From NCBI RefSeq assembly GCF_025602895.1, contig NW_026516276.1:124001-188000 (forward strand): a DNA stretch of 64,000 nucleotides. The letters are read 5' to 3'. Positions 11,076 to 60,447 of this stretch are shown here, one piece after another; position 1 is the stretch's first letter; each line of letters opens with the position of its first letter. The notes beneath the pieces are model-generated. The model saw nothing but the letters and a program-made list of their open reading frames with translations, was not told where the DNA came from and did no database searches. Both the position numbers and the translations under genes were made by a program. This DNA comes from Polychytrium aggregatum (lineage: Eukaryota; Chytridiomycota; Chytridiomycetes; Polychytriales).

Positions 11076-12738
11076 GGGAATGCGACTGGCGGCAGATGCG
11101 CCTGGATGGAAGGGGTGCCTCCCAGCTGGGGCTGGAACTGCTGGGGCTGGGAATGCAGCTGGTTGGGTGACTGGAACTGTTGGGGCTGGAAGGGTCGAGG
11201 TTGGGCCGAGCCAGGGAAGGCCGGTTGACCAGGGAAGCCAGGTTGACTCTGAAGATGGTCACTTGGGTTGGTTGCTCCCGGGATGGGGGGCTGGGGTTTT
11301 TGCATGTTCATCTGGTACTGCAGTTGTTCCTGGGGAGTCAGGCCAGCCAAGTGCTGGTGCAGCTGAGGCGACTGGTTCTGAGGGTTCATGGCCTGCAGGG
11401 GGATGCCAGGCACCGTCTGGCTCTGTGTGATGGCGGTGTTGTCTCGAAGGAAAATGCGCTCCTTTGGCGAGGCCGGGTTGGCGGCGTTGTGCAGCTGGAT
11501 GGGCTCGGGCTGATAGGCCGAGTCGAAGAACGACACACCCTTGCGGGGCTGGGAGCGAGCGACGATCAGCATTCCAGCAACCCTGCATGTTGGGCCAGGA
11601 GCGGATTGGTATGAAAACGGAGTACCCGAATTGGGGAGAGAGTTAGCTGCGATGTGTGCGAGTCCCCGCCGTCTGGGCGGCTGTGATCAGCAATCAGAGC
11701 GGCAGGAAGAAGCCGCAGCCGCAGCCGCAGCCGCAACCAGCGAGAATCCACTCGGGTCACTAAATGGGACGTTGCAAGATCGCCAGAGCTATCTCGGCTA
11801 CTGCATGAGATCGGTGACTTACGCTGCGATGCCAAAGACGATGCCAATGGCGATGCCGATGATGTTGCCACATGATATGCCGAGCAGAGAGCACGACGAG
11901 GCACCAGAGCCCAGAGCCGAACAGCAGGGATCGCTCGGATTCTGAGCGCAGTACGAGGTAGCCGCCGATGGGACAGTGCTGGAGCCGGAGGTTGAAAAGC
12001 CTGCAGGATAGCCGCCAACGGTGCGCATATGGACATTGGGCAGGCGGGTCAGGTATCGAAACATAGAATGAAACAGAAGGATGCGGCGGTGTCAGCCAAT
12101 GTGTTCCAAAGCCAGCCTCGCCTTCCACCAGATATCGAGCGTCGACAAAGGGGTGCTAGGTCCAAGATCATACCGCAGTACAACGCATCTGTGCCGAAGC
12201 TGCTGTTGCAGTTGCTGGAGGCGACGATGCTGCTTTGGCTGGTGCAGAAGTTGAAGAAATCGGAAAGCGTCTGGGTTCGTGCCTGGATATTCGCAGTGCC
12301 GCCCATGCATTGGTTGACAACGTCTCCCGACAGCAGCGTGGTGAACTGTGTGCAGTTGGCGGTGCAGTATCTTGCGGAGGGCTGCGAGTTGCATCCGCTG
12401 GTGAAGCTGGAGTTGCCGAGGATGTATGCACACATGAAGGAGGTGGTGTATCGAATGGTGCCGAGATTGGCCGCCGAGCAGCCCAAGGGGGCCATGATGG
12501 ACTGGGTGGACGGCGAGGACGAGGCCGCAAAGACGTAGCTGTCGAAGGAGTTGACGTCGGTGATGGGCAGGCCCGAGCTTGCCGAGATGGAGATGGATCC
12601 AAAGTTGGGGCAGGCTTGGGAGTTGGCCAAGGAGATGCATGTCTGGGCAGAGACCAGCGAGCAGGCGACGGCGAGTAGAAGGAGGACCGAGGGCCCGAGA
12701 CCGCAGATACGGCGAAGGGCGACACGGGCGGCGGCCAT
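10628..12738 (-). CDS. Single-pass membrane protein: Cys-rich ectodomain, TM helix, polyQ cytoplasmic tail
   Basis: Three exons join in phase: 12738-12174, 12000-11823 and 11582-10628, giving 565 aa. ATG at 12738 starts a signal peptide with hydrophobic core GPSVLLLLAVACSLVSA. About 200 residues of secreted sequence follow, rich in Cys, Ser and N-glycosylation sequons, opening with CISLANSQACPNF; the Cys spacing recalls Frizzled-like Cys-rich domains seen in other early fungi (weak). A second Cys cluster (AQNPSDPCCSALG) leads to one TM helix (NIIGIAIGIVFGIAA and on), which crosses the exon 2/3 join. The ~300-residue tail is Pro/Gln/Ser-rich, with several runs of up to ~20 Gln encoded mostly by CAG. 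Topology suggests a type I receptor or wall sensor. The function is unknown. Confidence 0.8.
10897..11073 (-). repeat. CAG/CAA trinucleotide tracts coding polyglutamine
   Basis: Nearly continuous CTG/TTG triplets on the + strand (CAG/CAA on the coding strand) in three blocks, the longest pure run near 11021-11072. They lie in exon 3 of the membrane protein gene. Pure CAG runs are length-unstable, so copy number may differ between strains or be miscounted in assembly. Confidence 0.95.
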
Positions 12739-13592
12739 ATTGGAACGAGGAGCGAAGCAGAGGCAGCGGGAGCGATGGCCGACGCAGGGGGGGGAGTTCC
12801 TCCTGTGGTGGAAAGCGGATCGACGCAGAGGCAAAGGAAAGCCGCCGTTGGGCAAGAAGACCGGGCGGTGGCGGGCAGAGACAGGAGAAGGCCGCGGGCG
12901 GCGCGGGCGCGCAGGGCTGCCAAATACGGCTGCTGTGCGCGCACAGACGTCGCACAGAGGCGCGCTGCAGCGCCACGGCGTGCGGGCCAGCGATTGGCGG
13001 GGCGGGCGGGCTGTGGCGGTGCGTGCGACAGAAGAATGTGCATCGAAGCATGAGGGCACGTTCGATCTGTGGCCGTGGTTGTCGCTGTTGGGTGTTGTTG
13101 CTGCTGTTTGTTGATGGAACAGCCAACGGCGGCGATCACCAACCAGCGCAGCCAACGGCTCTGCCCTTTGCATCTGCCATGTTGCATCTCCAGTGTTGCA
13201 TCTTCAATGTTGCATCTTCAGTGTTGCATCTTCAATGCTGCATCTGCCATGTCGCAATCCATCACACTCACACTCGCAATCCATCACGCTCACACTCGCA
13301 ATCCATCACGCTCACACTCGCACTCACACTCGCACTCACACTCGCACTCACACTTGCACCCGCCTGAGCCACCCGCAGGCTTCTGTCGTGGGCTCCATGG
13401 CCCGGCCTGGTGGCTCGCCCGCGCCAAGACCCCGTGGCCTTTCCCGATTCCTCCCGCCTCTTTTTTCCTCTCCGCTGCTTGCTGCTTTCTTCCTCCCCGC
13501 TGCTTGCTGCTATCTTCCTCTCCGTTTTCACCCCCATCTCTCCTTTTCGGCGCTGCCTCGCCCTGCCTTCCAGCACCCAGGCCGTCGCCGCG
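12739..13592. promoter_or_regulatory. Divergent intergenic region with microsatellites
   Basis: 854 bp between the start codons of the polyQ membrane protein (-) and the prolidase-like peptidase (+), so both promoters must lie here. It holds a tandem GTTGCATCTTCA-type array at ~13182-13255, then CACTCGCAATCCATCACGCT-type and CACTCG arrays at ~13262-13360, and a C/T-rich stretch (13430-13560) just before the + strand start. Long frames on both strands here are low-complexity by-products. Confidence 0.6.
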
Positions 13593-16345
13593 ATGACCTC
13601 GTACTTCTCTGACACCGAGGACGAGTCCTCCCTCCCGCTGCTCGTCGATGAGGCCACCAAGCGCCCCCATCACCCCCATCACCCCAGGCATCCCAAGCAT
13701 CCCAAGCATCCCGACCATCCCCGCCGCCGTCGCCGCGTCCTGTGGCTGCTGCTCGGCTTTCTTCTTTTGGCCGGCTTTGCCTTTGCGATCGTGATCATCG
13801 CCCATTGGCTGTTTGCTGTTCATCACGGCTCCATCCACATCGGTAATGTATCAGATCCATCGCCGCTCCCTCCCTTGGTCACGTCCATGCGTCCTTCTGA
13901 AACCTGCTCTTTTGCGTTGCTTCGGCCTCGCGTTGCCTTCTTGTCTCTCGGCGCCTCTTCAGGCAAACTACCCCTCGCTGCTTGTTTGCTCTAACCAACC
14001 CGGTCTCCAGTTTGCCCGTTCCCCGCTCCCGAGGCCACAACCCCGGTCTACGTGGAGACCCGCCAGCGTCTGCTGTCTGTCTTTCGCGAGTCGGTCCCCG
14101 ACTTCTCCAACGACACCGTCGTTCTTGTCCCAACCTCGCCCCGTTCGTACCGCATCGCCGGTGATGTCGAGTCGGGCCTTTGGAGACAGGCCTCCAATGT
14201 CATCTACGTCGCGGGTCTGTTCACTTATGAGCCCGCGGTTCTTGCTCTCCGTGTATCCGAGACCATCCCCGACTCTCTCGATGTGGATGTCTTCCGCCCC
14301 AGCCTGACCCCGAGAGAGATCATCTTCTCGGGCCCGCCTCCCTCGGCCGAGACTCTCGCCTCCGAGAACGGCATCTCGGGCGTCTATGACTACTCCGACT
14401 TTGACCGTGTCTACGAAGGCAAGACCGTGCTGTCCTCTGCTGCTGTCGAGTTCCTTCCTCGCGAGCTTCGCGACAGCGCAAAGTACTCTGCCGAGGCCCA
14501 GGAATCCTTTATTGAATCTCGCTTCGTCAAGACCCCTCTGGAGCTGGAGTACTTGTCCTTTGCTAGCAAGGTCTCTGCTTGGGCTCACTACCAGGTCGCC
14601 CGCAAGATCAAGTACAGCCGCTCCGTGTCCGGTAGGACCTTTGTGCAATCGAGAGACAGTCGTGCATGCAGTCGTCCTTTCCCTCTGCCGGCAGCCCTGG
14701 AGGAGGATGTGCCTCGATCTGCAGCGTGCTATGACATTCCATGACAGTCCGTGACACTCCAGAGCATTCTGTGACTGTCCGTGGCTGTCCACGACAGTCC
14801 GCAATTGCCCATGTCGATACTTTGATCCATCGCCACTACCGTCGTCAATCACTGCTAACCTGGTTCTCCGTTCTTCCCGCGGTCAACCATGTTGCTCCCT
14901 GGCTTCCGCACCCTTGACGATCGTCAATTGCCTGATCCCTGCGGACTTCAACCTCGGTCGTGCTCCAAATGCCCTGGCGCGCTTCCGTTTGCGCCCTATT
15001 CAGAAATCGGTCTGGCTTCCCTCTTCACCCATGTGACGGCCGCCTGTGGCGCTCGTTTGCAAGCCTATCCTCCCATTGTTGGTGCTGGCCCCAACTCTGC
15101 CATTCTGCACTACCGCACCGGCGACAATGAGACCTCCGGCTACGCCCACATCGAGCCCAACTCGTATGTCCTGATCGATGCTGCCGGCGAATATCACGGA
15201 TACGCCAGCGACATCACCCGTACCTACATTCGCCCGAACCCTCACTGGTGGTCCCGTCATCGCCGCGACCGCGACGACGAGCCCGAGGAGTACATGGCCT
15301 CAAGCAACAGGGGCGACCGCTATCGCCGCAACGATGACGACGCCGACAACGACGACGATGGCGACAGCGACGACGACGATTCTCGTCGTCCTCATCGTCC
15401 TCATCACCCGCATCACCCGCACCACCCGCATCACTGGCCTCATCGTCCTCACCCCCACCCCCACCCCCACCCTCACCCTCACCCTCGTCCTCACCCTCGT
15501 CCTCACCCTCGTCCTCACCCCAAGCCCACTCCCATCGACGAAGAAAAGGTCAAGATTCAGGATATCGTTGCCAAGGTCCAGCAGTCCTTTATCGACTCTT
15601 TCGAGGTCGGCGCCTCTTTAGCCGATCTGAATCGCAAGGCCGCCCGGGTTATGATTGAGTCGCTGCTCGACGCTGGTTTTGTCCACGGTGCCGACGTTGA
15701 CACGCTCTTGTATAAGGGTGTTGGCTATGCCTTCCAGCCCCATGGTCTCGGGCATCCTGTTGGTCAGTATTCCCGGCAGACAGCTCCGCATTTCAATGTG
15801 CCTGTTATGCCTGCATTCGCGTTGGCCGAGACCCGGCCGTTGGTCTCTCCTCTATTTGTATCCATCTCACCATTCTCCAACTGGATGTGCTGCCGACCTC
15901 CATGCGCACATCTGCTATCGCTCGCAATCGTATCGGCATGCCTTGTTTACATGCTCCATCCTACACAGGCCTCGATGTTCACGATCCTGTGCCCAAGCGC
16001 TACTCGTCTCAGTTTTTGACCCTGGATCTGCCCCCGGTTCCCAAGCTCATCCAGCCCTTCATCCGCGACATCCGCACCCTCGCTGTCGACTACACCATTG
16101 CTCCCGGCCACATCGTCACGGTCGAGCCCGGTGTCTACTTTATCCCCTATCTCCTTGATCTGATCAAGAACGACAAATCCGAGGCTTCGATTGCTCAGTA
16201 CATCAACTGGGACAAGCTCGAGAGCGGTAACTACACCAGCTACGGCGGTGTCCGAACCGAGGACATTGTTCTGATCAACCCCGAGGGCGAGAAGGTCATT
16301 GTCTCGCGCCTGAACCCCCACCACAAGCGCAAGCATTGGTTTTGA
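13593..16345 (+). CDS. Membrane-anchored M24 metallopeptidase (prolidase/aminopeptidase P type)
   Basis: Four exons in phase: 13593-13842, 14011-14631, 15004-15762 and 15969-16345; 668 aa. M24 enzymes cleave Xaa-Pro bonds with two metal ions. The five metal ligands are visible: Asp in DAAGEYHG, Asp in SDITRTY, His in HGLGHPVG, Glu in TVEPGVYF and Glu in VRTEDIVLI. Exon 2 carries the N-terminal non-catalytic domain. Before it lies a cytosolic stretch with HP repeats and RRRRR, then one TM helix (VLWLLLGFLLLAGFAFAIVI), giving a type II anchor that ordinary prolidases lack. Between the second Asp ligand and the helix EEKVKIQDIVAKVQQSFI, exon 3 has ~95 extra residues: an Arg/Asp-rich segment, then His-Pro repeats. 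Substrate and membrane are not known; the topology predicts a lumenal or extracellular catalytic domain. Confidence 0.9.
15262..15535 (+). repeat. Asp-rich and His-Pro coding repeats inside the peptidase domain
   Basis: In-frame GAC/GAT-rich sequence (~15262-15380) is followed by CAT-CAC-CCG and CAC-CCC style triplet repeats (~15390-15525) encoding His-His-Pro and His-Pro units. No stop or frame break occurs, and the sequence on each side resumes the M24 alignment, so the insert is translated unless an unseen intron removes it. Confidence 0.85.
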
Positions 16346-57500: not shown

Positions 57501-60447
57501 CTGCGCCAATCCCATGCCAAAGTTGGCGGTGCGCTGGAGTCGGCGAGATGCGTAAGCACACAGCCAAGCCAAACTCGGTCTCGACGAGTACCAATGAGCA
57601 GCTTGCTTACGTGCTTCAAGCCAAGTTCCATCTGGTGGATAACGCTCTCGACGCGATGGGCATCGAATCCGTGCTGAGCGGCATCTGCAAGGGTGTTTTG
57701 GATAGCATCTTCAACCTAGAGCCCAGAGGGTATTGGCGGCACGTTGAAAGTATTAATGGGAGGCTCAAAGCATACGCACATGGCGCTCAACAAGAAGCTT
57801 ACCCTCGGAGCGTCTTCCGACCGGATCCCTTGCAGCCCAAACGAAACCTTGGCCAGTCTGCATGCTCAGCCATCCAACATATTAGAAACTCGCAACTATC
57901 TGTCCGTGAGCCTGCGAAAGATTGAAACCTGGACAAGCTAGCAGGAAAACTGGCACAGAGGGGAGAACGAAGCCAGTTGTTCTTTGACATCGTCTACCTG
58001 GCAGTCGAATCGTATCCGCTTCCCATCACGTAGTCGGTGCCGAGATCGGATTCAATCAAGGACTTGTACATGGGCGAGGCCGCCCCTTCAGTGAGCAACG
58101 AACAGATAACTCGCAGGACGAAAGTCTCAAAGATGTCCTGGTATCGCAAATGAGACCGATGAGTACGAGCGCTACGATCCCAAGTGCGCTGGAAGTTTGG
58201 AGGTTGGCATGCTGGCTCAAACCTACGTTCGAGTCGTTCACCAGATACGAAATGGCCACCTTTGACTCGCGTCCATCGATGGCCACTAGGTCGCGTCAAG
58301 CCCAGATATTGCATTTGTTAGATAGGTCGATGTCCTCTTGCAGCCACATGTTTAGTACTGAAGGAATGCGCCGATCTCAAGCCATGCCTCACATACAGGC
58401 ATCTGGTACACTGGAAACTATCATTTTTCTTGGCTTAGACCACCGTTCGGTATCATTCAGCTGCTCGGGCTGGATCTTTTCGAAGACCGAGATCGAAGCA
58501 TCGATTTTGGAGAGGTGATCGACCAATGGGAACGTGCCTGGTATGAAACGCACAGAGACAGGTCAGGTCGACCCTTGCAAGAGCCGAAGCTCAACAGCTC
58601 CGACAGTTTGATATAAAGCGCCCCTTACCATAAGTGAAGAATTTGGCGTTGCTTGGGTGATAGTTTTTGTGGTGGAAATCGACTAGCTGCTCATGGGTCA
58701 GATCGGTGATCTCAATAGGATCTCCTCCGCTGACGGTGGAGTATGTGGTACTGGGATACATGTACTGCTGTAGACGCTGAGCAAAGAGTGAATTCATATC
58801 CGACTAGAGAGCACAGGTTTTGAAGCAGCGTGCACAAGAGTCGGCGTAGATTTGGATTTGGATTTGGATTTGGATTTGGATTTGGATTTGGATTTGGATT
58901 TGGATTTGGATTTGGATTTGGATTTGGATTGGTCGTTAGTATGTGCGAGTACAGGGCTGCTCGACAGGGGCGCGGAGGGTCGTACGATTCAGTAGACGAG
59001 GTGTACTGCTCGCCAGCCCAACGGCTGCATCTGCTGACTACGATCCCCCACCAGTGCTCCTTTCATTTCGTTGTACACGACACCCTTGAACACGATGGGA
59101 GTACTGGCATCTGTGAGCATCGTGCGCGGCAGTATCGCGGGTATCAGTATCGAGAGTCTCAGCATCTGGAAAAGAGCGCCATCTTGAGCATCACCAAGTC
59201 TGACTGAACGTCTCACCTCGAGGGTCTTGATGCTCCAAGCGCCATCCCTCTTGTCTGAGAAAAAAAAAAGGCGAATCATAGCGTCAGCTAGCTTCCACCG
59301 TAATCCACACCTGACCAGCGTAAGCCAAGTGCCAGCGAAACTCTGGACTGAGACCGTGAACACGGGGCTTACTAGCCGTCCCCACCGCAAACGAGAGCAA
59401 CAAAGCAGACTAGACGGCGTACAGGAAATCAAACTTTTGAAGTCGAGGGGCCAGAGTTGAGTCCATGTACACATCCATCAGGTTGTAAAAGTCGGTTTTG
59501 TTTTCCGTCGAGAATGGATATATGGTCACATCCGAGCCTAAGCCATTCCAAGGATGCAGCAGGTTCGTTGGTCAGGATGGAGTCGCCAGCCGGGGCTCTG
59601 GTGGACATCTATGGAATGTCTTGCACACATGTGCACCGCCCGCACATAAATCTGCAGCATCCAGACCAGTCATCGCATTCATGAACGTCGCCATGGATCT
59701 GTTGAGCATTTTGAAGAAAGGATCGCGGACGGGATACTTTTCGCTGCCACAGAGCGTAGTATGCTCAAGAATATGCGGGACACCGGTGCTGTCCCTTGGC
59801 GCCGTCTGGAAAGCGACACTGATGATTCCAATGAATGGATATGCCGTTATCAGCCATTTATACTACTGGAGGTCGACGATGCTATCGACGATGCTATCGA
59901 CTACGCTATCAATGATGCCATCGAGGGTACCTAAACACATTGTTGGCATCGTCCTTGAAAACATGGAGGTAGTCGGCATTGGTTTTGATGTGTTTCAATC
60001 GCACGGCCACCTGATCAAAGTCTGGAATCGGCTTGACCTGGATAAATTGTGGAACATCAGGGCGACACGCAGCTGACGATACATGCTCGTTTGCCAAGCG
60101 ATCTGAGACGTTTGGTCGGTACAAGTCCGCTGCGGCTGTTCCGAGGCATCCGTGTCTGTACCTGCACAACCCTAAAGCCATGGACAACTCGACCGACTTG
60201 GAATTGCTCCAGCTCTGGGAACAATCGGTAAACTGTGGTCAGGGCCGGTCGGCAAATGCTGTGCTGGTTCAGGCCGGCACGAGCCGCAGCAATCGACACA
60301 GCGATCCACAGCGAGAGGACATTTACGATTCTGGGCCAAGGTCGAGAGGGGAGAGCGTGGGGTACAGGAGCGAAGACTTGAACGCAGCGCAGACACCGTC
60401 CGTCGCGAAAGCAGCGGGGCAAAATGCTTGGATGCCAGATGGATCAT
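54512..60447 (-). CDS. CYM1: CYM1/PreP presequence protease (mitochondrial M16C metallopeptidase)
   Basis: A gene of more than 15 short exons. ATG at 60447 opens a typical presequence ([20 protein letters not shown]); exon 1 ends at 60327. Next come [31 protein letters not shown] and [15 protein letters not shown]. The inverted zinc motif HxxEH is HILEH at 59761-59775, followed by [19 protein letters not shown]. The distal glutamate lies in [13 protein letters not shown] (~59050). Further blocks are [72 protein letters not shown]-type sequence before ISPQGKTYP (~56780), and C-terminal [20 protein letters not shown] (~55300). It ends VDSSAGGEY (TAG at 54512). The enzyme degrades cleaved presequences and other short peptides in the matrix. 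Confidence 0.93.
58849..58930. repeat. (GGATTT)n hexanucleotide array in a CYM1 intron
   Basis: About 13 perfect copies of GGATTT/TTTGGA lie between the exons coding the distal-glutamate motif and [20 protein letters not shown]. It is intronic and not a telomere repeat. Confidence 0.9.

Follow-up and report, generated by a model that had tools for sequence, protein, structure and literature searches.

A prolidase-like M24 peptidase gene of Polychytrium aggregatum, probably membrane-anchored, with a simple-repeat insert beside a metal ligand

The substrates of prolidases are free dipeptides. A survey of 42 genomes of ascomycetes and basidiomycetes reported prolidase homologues in 41 of them, and most of the proline-specific peptidases that it found have neither a signal peptide nor a membrane segment; for the one species detailed in the accessible part of that report, none of three prolidase homologues has a signal peptide or transmembrane region (PMC8469457). 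The human enzyme, PEPD, is described as cytosolic in the available text of another report (PMC8438212). In Escherichia coli PepQ, a loop arginine, R370, is predicted to contact the C-terminus of the dipeptide and so to impede longer peptides, as given in the accessible part of the source (PMC4213023). The present analysis concerns a stretch of 64,000 nucleotides (hereafter the window) from the chytrid Polychytrium aggregatum (contig NW_026516276.1, positions 124,001 to 188,000, forward strand; assembly GCF_025602895.1), and within it a prolidase-like M24 peptidase gene at 13593-16345. A preliminary description, made from the sequence alone, saw there a membrane-anchored prolidase with an in-frame Asp and then His-Pro insert next to its metal centre. 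That layout was confirmed by the spliced model, the alignments and a count of ligand spacing, which together give a predicted anchor, an intact predicted active site and the insert. The same description knew of no prolidase with this layout, and none was seen among the open-licence papers listed, judged by titles and the starts of abstracts.

The reading that we regard as probable is that of a real, probably active, type II anchored prolidase paralogue with a loop grown from simple repeats. The loop that links the strand of the second Asp ligand to the helix after it would have lengthened from some 13 residues to some 110 by way of GAC/CGC and CAYCCN-type repeats, and would be translated and mostly disordered. 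It would exit the surface of the fold between two elements of normal sequence, and for that reason the expansion would be tolerated. Most likely the loop has no dedicated metal function, and any metal bound by it would be incidental; it would be a passenger on an anchored paralogue that works by the ordinary prolidase mechanism.

The gene model starts with the ATG at 13593 and ends with the stop codon at 16345. Its four exons (13593-13842, 14011-14631, 15004-15762 and 15969-16345) join in frame at GT-AG junctions and encode 668 residues. The donors are TCG/GTAATG, CCG/GTAGGA and TTG/GTCAGT (the slash marks the junction), and the acceptors are CAG. The features are as follows.

13593-16345, plus strand: prolidase-like M24 peptidase gene, probably membrane-anchored, four exons, 668 residues (in-frame spliced model, Pfam, alignment to human prolidase in the PDB).
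13593-13842, plus strand: exon 1, with the N-terminus, a His-Pro run and a hydrophobic segment (first donor).
13665-13721, plus strand: N-terminal His-Pro run, residues 25-43, on the predicted cytosolic side, ahead of RRRRR and the hydrophobic segment.
13746-13802, plus strand: hydrophobic segment, residues 52-70, probable type II signal anchor (top Kyte-Doolittle window).
14011-14631, plus strand: exon 2, with the AMP_N-like domain and the beginning of the catalytic domain (spliced model, Pfam).
15004-15762, plus strand: exon 3, with two Asp ligands, the insert, a helix and the His ligand (spliced model, prolidase alignment).
15177-15179, plus strand: first Asp metal ligand, D349 (prolidase alignment).
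15210-15212, plus strand: second Asp metal ligand, D360 (prolidase alignment).
15255-15386, plus strand: first part of the insert, a block rich in Arg and Asp that covers residues 375-418 and has a net charge of -10 (spacing and composition; edges uncertain by several residues).
15387-15536, plus strand: second part of the insert, His-Pro and Arg-Pro repeats that cover residues 419-468 and have a net charge of +7 if His is left out of the count (repeats and composition; a predicted helix follows from residue 470).
15753-15755, plus strand: His metal ligand, H541 (prolidase alignment).
15969-16345, plus strand: exon 4, with H548, R579, E596 (16124-16126), R639, E641 (16259-16261) and the stop codon (spliced model, prolidase alignment).

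A Pfam scan of the 668-residue protein detected Peptidase_M24 (126.5 bits against a cut-off of 23, E-value 1.6e-36) in two separate stretches and AMP_N (27.5 bits against 24.6, E-value 2.9e-6), the latter only just above threshold; no other domain, and no cystatin domain, was found. The best PDB matches by sequence in phmmer were chains named Xaa-Pro dipeptidase (5mc0, 2iw2 and others; five alignments were displayed), which we take to be human prolidase PEPD of MEROPS M24B. As the preliminary description had claimed, all five M24 metal ligands are present and align with prolidase: D349, D360, H541, E596 and E641. Four further active-site residues, H326, H548, R579 and R639, are also kept and align with human H255, H377, R398 and R450 (human numbering). 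The domain score above cut-off together with the ligands D, D, H, E, E places the protein in family M24, and the AMP_N match places it, narrowly, in the prolidase and aminopeptidase P group. The dipeptide-selecting Arg of prolidases is found in R579, which aligns with human R398, the counterpart of PepQ R370. The score against NCBIfam PRK13607, the bacterial PepQ equivalog, is below its cut-off (151.6 against 339 bits), which excludes only that bacterial equivalog. Since the metal ligands and active-site residues are kept, an active Xaa-Pro dipeptidase with the ordinary prolidase mechanism is probably to be expected.

The stretch between the second Asp and the His ligand measures 180 residues here and exactly 82 in all 81 aligned relatives, a set of 80 bacterial loci and a soluble prolidase-like paralogue in the same genome; the bacterial loci are the best 80 of 543 relatives, mostly Bacteroidales and with no fungi, and thus not a broad sample. 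Counted on the alignment with the paralogue, about 97 of the net excess of 98 residues fall in one loop, at the spot where the paralogue has TFPVNGKFTKDQ, its ordinary loop; the first estimate of about 95 residues was right. In the five phmmer alignments the match stops at residue 365 and restarts at 475. The 94-residue core of the insert (375-468) contains 22 Pro, 20 His, 16 Asp and 15 Arg. AlphaFold, applied to exon 3 alone (half a domain, 29 bacterial alignment rows, mean pLDDT 57.9), begins a helix at protein residue 470, right behind the insert, and piece residues 181-240 have block means of 76-91. Among viral contigs, 28 stretches matched the search pattern and none of the 28 encodes a relative.

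Residues 52-70 have a mean Kyte-Doolittle value of 2.91 and come after HPRRRRR, whereas the best window of the soluble paralogue is 1.14. The His-Pro repeats near the N-terminus that were described at first are borne out at residues 25-43. Positive charges ahead of a hydrophobic segment favour an N-in, C-out orientation, and their arrangement here suggests that the catalytic domain lies outside the cytosol. The N-glycosylation sequons of the protein number three, compared with two in the soluble paralogue, and its Cys residues 2, compared with 15; these counts fit an ectodomain outside the cytosol and are no proof of one.

It may be asked whether the insert reaches the protein at all. In one alternative it is removed as an intron, in all or some transcripts, in the manner of an exitron. 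A list was made of in-frame GT-AG pairs that enclose more than 100 nt and span the insert, with donors at 15180-15420 and acceptors at 15380-15640, and donors were scored by a simple consensus count out of 8. For reference, homology served to place introns in genes for chaperonins (PF00118) and kinesins (PF00225), at 38 hand-picked junctions, which are not exhaustive. An exact GT-AG solution was obtained at 31 junctions and was unique at 29; the 7 dropped junctions comprise 4 whose solutions all miss by one residue (with donor scores between 2 and 7) and 3 without any. All 29 uniquely placed introns have donor scores of 5 (13 introns), 6 (12) or 7 (4), with CAG (22), TAG (5) or AAG (2) as acceptors, and the three introns of the prolidase-like gene score 5-6, against 2-4 for all ten pairs found across the insert. 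Good splice sites for its removal are thus absent among these pairs, as the first reading of the insert as coding would have it. The pair 15256-15543 (288 nt) is in frame and would yield a ligand spacing that differs from the normal one by two residues at most, and its AAG acceptor is of the kind used by 2 of the 29 placed introns; however, its donor scores 3, and splicing there would cut into the predicted helix start DEEK. The region 15200-15640 lacks a CTRAY or YTRAY motif. This is a weak point, because the gene's own intron 3 has none and CTRAY occurs in only 16 of the 31 placed introns, 10-60 nt from the acceptor. The open frame is likewise weak evidence taken alone, because stops are missing as well from 308 of 2000 composition shuffles of the stretch 15237-15546 and from two other frames there.

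An apparently spliced repeat array does occur in this genome, in the eRF1 gene (locus L028, contig C1 of G000, about 119914-120002, minus strand). There a (CATCCA)15 array ends an intron directly before the acceptor, which is a good one, between LLEW/GTAAGG and CCACAG/LAEKYKDFG (Pfam eRF1_3); because its His-Pro frame has no stop, an annotation might mistake the array for coding sequence. It favours removal of the prolidase insert to the extent that it illustrates such a case, but the insert has no comparable predicted sites, and we consider its removal by splicing unlikely. The eRF1 intron also favours a second alternative, exonisation, in which the insert is a former intron with a hexamer array that is now retained in frame. 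The insert has no in-frame stop, and the ligand spacing is near normal once 288 nt are taken away. The acidic block, on the other hand, resembles a trinucleotide expansion and not an intron, and, going by its title, a Cryptococcus study (PMC2740785) describes de-intronization as rare there. Such an origin, too, is to be thought of as unlikely.

The growth of the loop from simple repeats, which we favour, is consistent with the DNA of the insert. Tandem arrays of period 18 (15324-15378), 9 (15402-15434) and 6 and 24 (15447-15520) run through it with 79-91% matches, the N-terminal His-Pro run is a 9-base array (13683-13721), and the 5' flank holds hexamer, 12-, 14- and 22-base arrays. The window has four overlapping matches to (CAYCCN)3, all inside the insert, against 0.01 expected. 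Genome-wide, (CAYCCN)4 has 1621 overlapping matches (791 + 830) against 89 (50 + 39) for the reversed pattern, and three HHP units occur 41 times (26 + 15) against none in the control. Given the tandem repeats in the insert and the abundance of CAYCCN arrays in the genome, the insert is most likely a surface loop that arose out of short DNA repeats, and not a device built for handling metal. Screening of 60 repeat loci, with (CAYCCN)4 or HHP, identified two genes, the prolidase-like gene and eRF1. At three other loci, L060, L064 and L081 (contigs C135, C194 and C373), HHP-frame arrays of 5, 10 and 7 units stand at similar sites; they are perhaps copies of one element, or haplotypes.

Several observations weigh against this explanation or parts of it. 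Pure CCTCAC x4 has two matches genome-wide, in one array, against 50 for the reversed control, and a genome search confined the RPHPRPHP unit to this locus, in both of its assembly copies. It follows that the exact unit of the insert is not common in the genome, whereas the wider CAYCCN class is. Strictly, two separate His-Pro runs in one protein exceed what slippage needs. In the AlphaFold model, piece residues 91-140 of the insert score 34-48 and most of the insert 34-57, but the core before it (piece 11-90) is equally uncertain at 42-54, the last part of the repeat reaches 70-72 (piece 151-170), and the model places helices of low confidence at 79-90 and 95-98. With the core as uncertain as the insert, the model supports the helix start and not disorder. 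The sequons are weak evidence for topology, as the soluble paralogue has two.

The preliminary description suggested that the loop might buffer or deliver metal. A His/Asp-rich loop would then bind Zn, Mn or Ni and pass it in cis to the dinuclear site, which would be useful to an enzyme outside the cytosol, given the scarce or changeable metal supply there. The 20 His and 16 Asp of the core lie close behind the second Asp ligand in sequence, and a loose precedent exists in trans, in that a role as zinc chaperone to AMP deaminase, a dinuclear enzyme, has been suggested for histidine-proline-rich glycoprotein (HPRG). According to the accessible part of the same source, however, the specific zinc site of HPRG is separate from its His-Pro region (PMC4101493), and in the available text of another study the activity of human prolidase was unaltered by an N-terminal His-tag, which is a different position (PMC9600000). 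DNA repeats also explain the sequence of the insert without selection. The suggestion thus gained no positive support, the insert being tandem DNA repeats of a class abundant in the genome; metal buffering in cis is possible, and passage of metal to the site in this way is improbable. A more elaborate version appears very improbable, namely a lumenal or cell-surface prolidase with its own metal-loading loop, in which the acidic stretch and the His-Pro tail, set behind the second Asp ligand and ahead of the following helix and co-opted from a repeat that may once have been an intron, would charge or gate the dinuclear site by metal and pH.

It was also proposed at first that the repeats might be a substrate or autoinhibitor of the enzyme. 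His-Pro is an Xaa-Pro pair and lies near an active-site ligand in sequence, so a tethered pseudo-substrate can be envisaged. However, R579 is kept, its PepQ equivalent R370 being placed to impede longer peptides in the accessible part of the report (PMC4213023), and the repeat is tethered on both sides, with no free ends. Prolidase takes free dipeptides. Use of the repeats as substrate is unlikely, and inhibition of the enzyme by them scarcely credible.

A second copy of the gene lies on contig C46, with 4676 of 4727 aligned positions identical around the gene, and is taken for the other haplotype. Both copies have equal exon lengths and an insert of equal length. Five coding bases differ, three of them in the His-Pro tract, and R452H is the sole residue change. 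In the 5' flank the two copies are separated by gaps of 19, 12, 6 and 1 bases; the gaps of 19, 12 and 6 fall in a shared upstream region (window 13040-13360) with 14-base and hexamer arrays. By our own grouping, six of nine M24 loci are present in two or three copies whose scores are equal or nearly so (contigs C46/C391, C21/C404, C163/C246/C2, C157/C116, C33/C408 and C346/C233), and therefore the 64.7 Mb assembly probably retains both haplotypes. Upstream, on the minus strand (12049-13173), a divergent open reading frame combines a hydrophobic stretch resembling a signal peptide with a body rich in Cys and Ser; a 229-residue piece of it had no Pfam match at E 0.1. Elsewhere in the window, the heptamer TTGATAC is repeated 13 times at 1659-1749 (97% matches) and the hexamer GATTTG 13.7 times at 58849-58930 (100% matches).

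The locus provides a clear example from nature in which a conserved fold, with its 82-residue spacing in 81 of 81 relatives, bears a simple-repeat loop of about 97 residues just past a metal-ligand strand, while the nine active-site residues checked are all kept. It offers a tractable system for asking whether such repeats are neutral passengers or able to become metal-handling parts. The protein departs from the usual loop spacing of its relatives.

Several known systems resemble the predicted protein in part. DPP4 is a serine peptidase of a fold different from that of M24. It is alike in that fungal DPP4 is a proline-specific peptidase with transmembrane forms, as reported in the accessible part of the survey (PMC8469457). 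The soluble paralogue (contig C57, M24 match at 341737-342531, minus strand) was the sole match besides both gene copies in one search; it is of the same family, with 30% identity, and differs in having no strong hydrophobic segment, an ordinary loop and 504 residues open without introns. HPRG carries HHPHG tandem repeats and cystatin domains, neither of which was found in the 668-residue protein (HHPHG by eye, cystatin by Pfam). The two share a His-Pro-rich segment and, for HPRG, a proposed tie to a dinuclear metalloenzyme in the available text (PMC4101493), but HPRG is a separate plasma protein and the prolidase-like protein carries only the M24 and AMP_N domains. Human prolidase PEPD is the best PDB match, and the five ligands and four further active-site residues align; PEPD is cytosolic with a short loop, whereas in the chytrid protein the N-terminus probably forms an anchor and the loop runs to about 110 residues.
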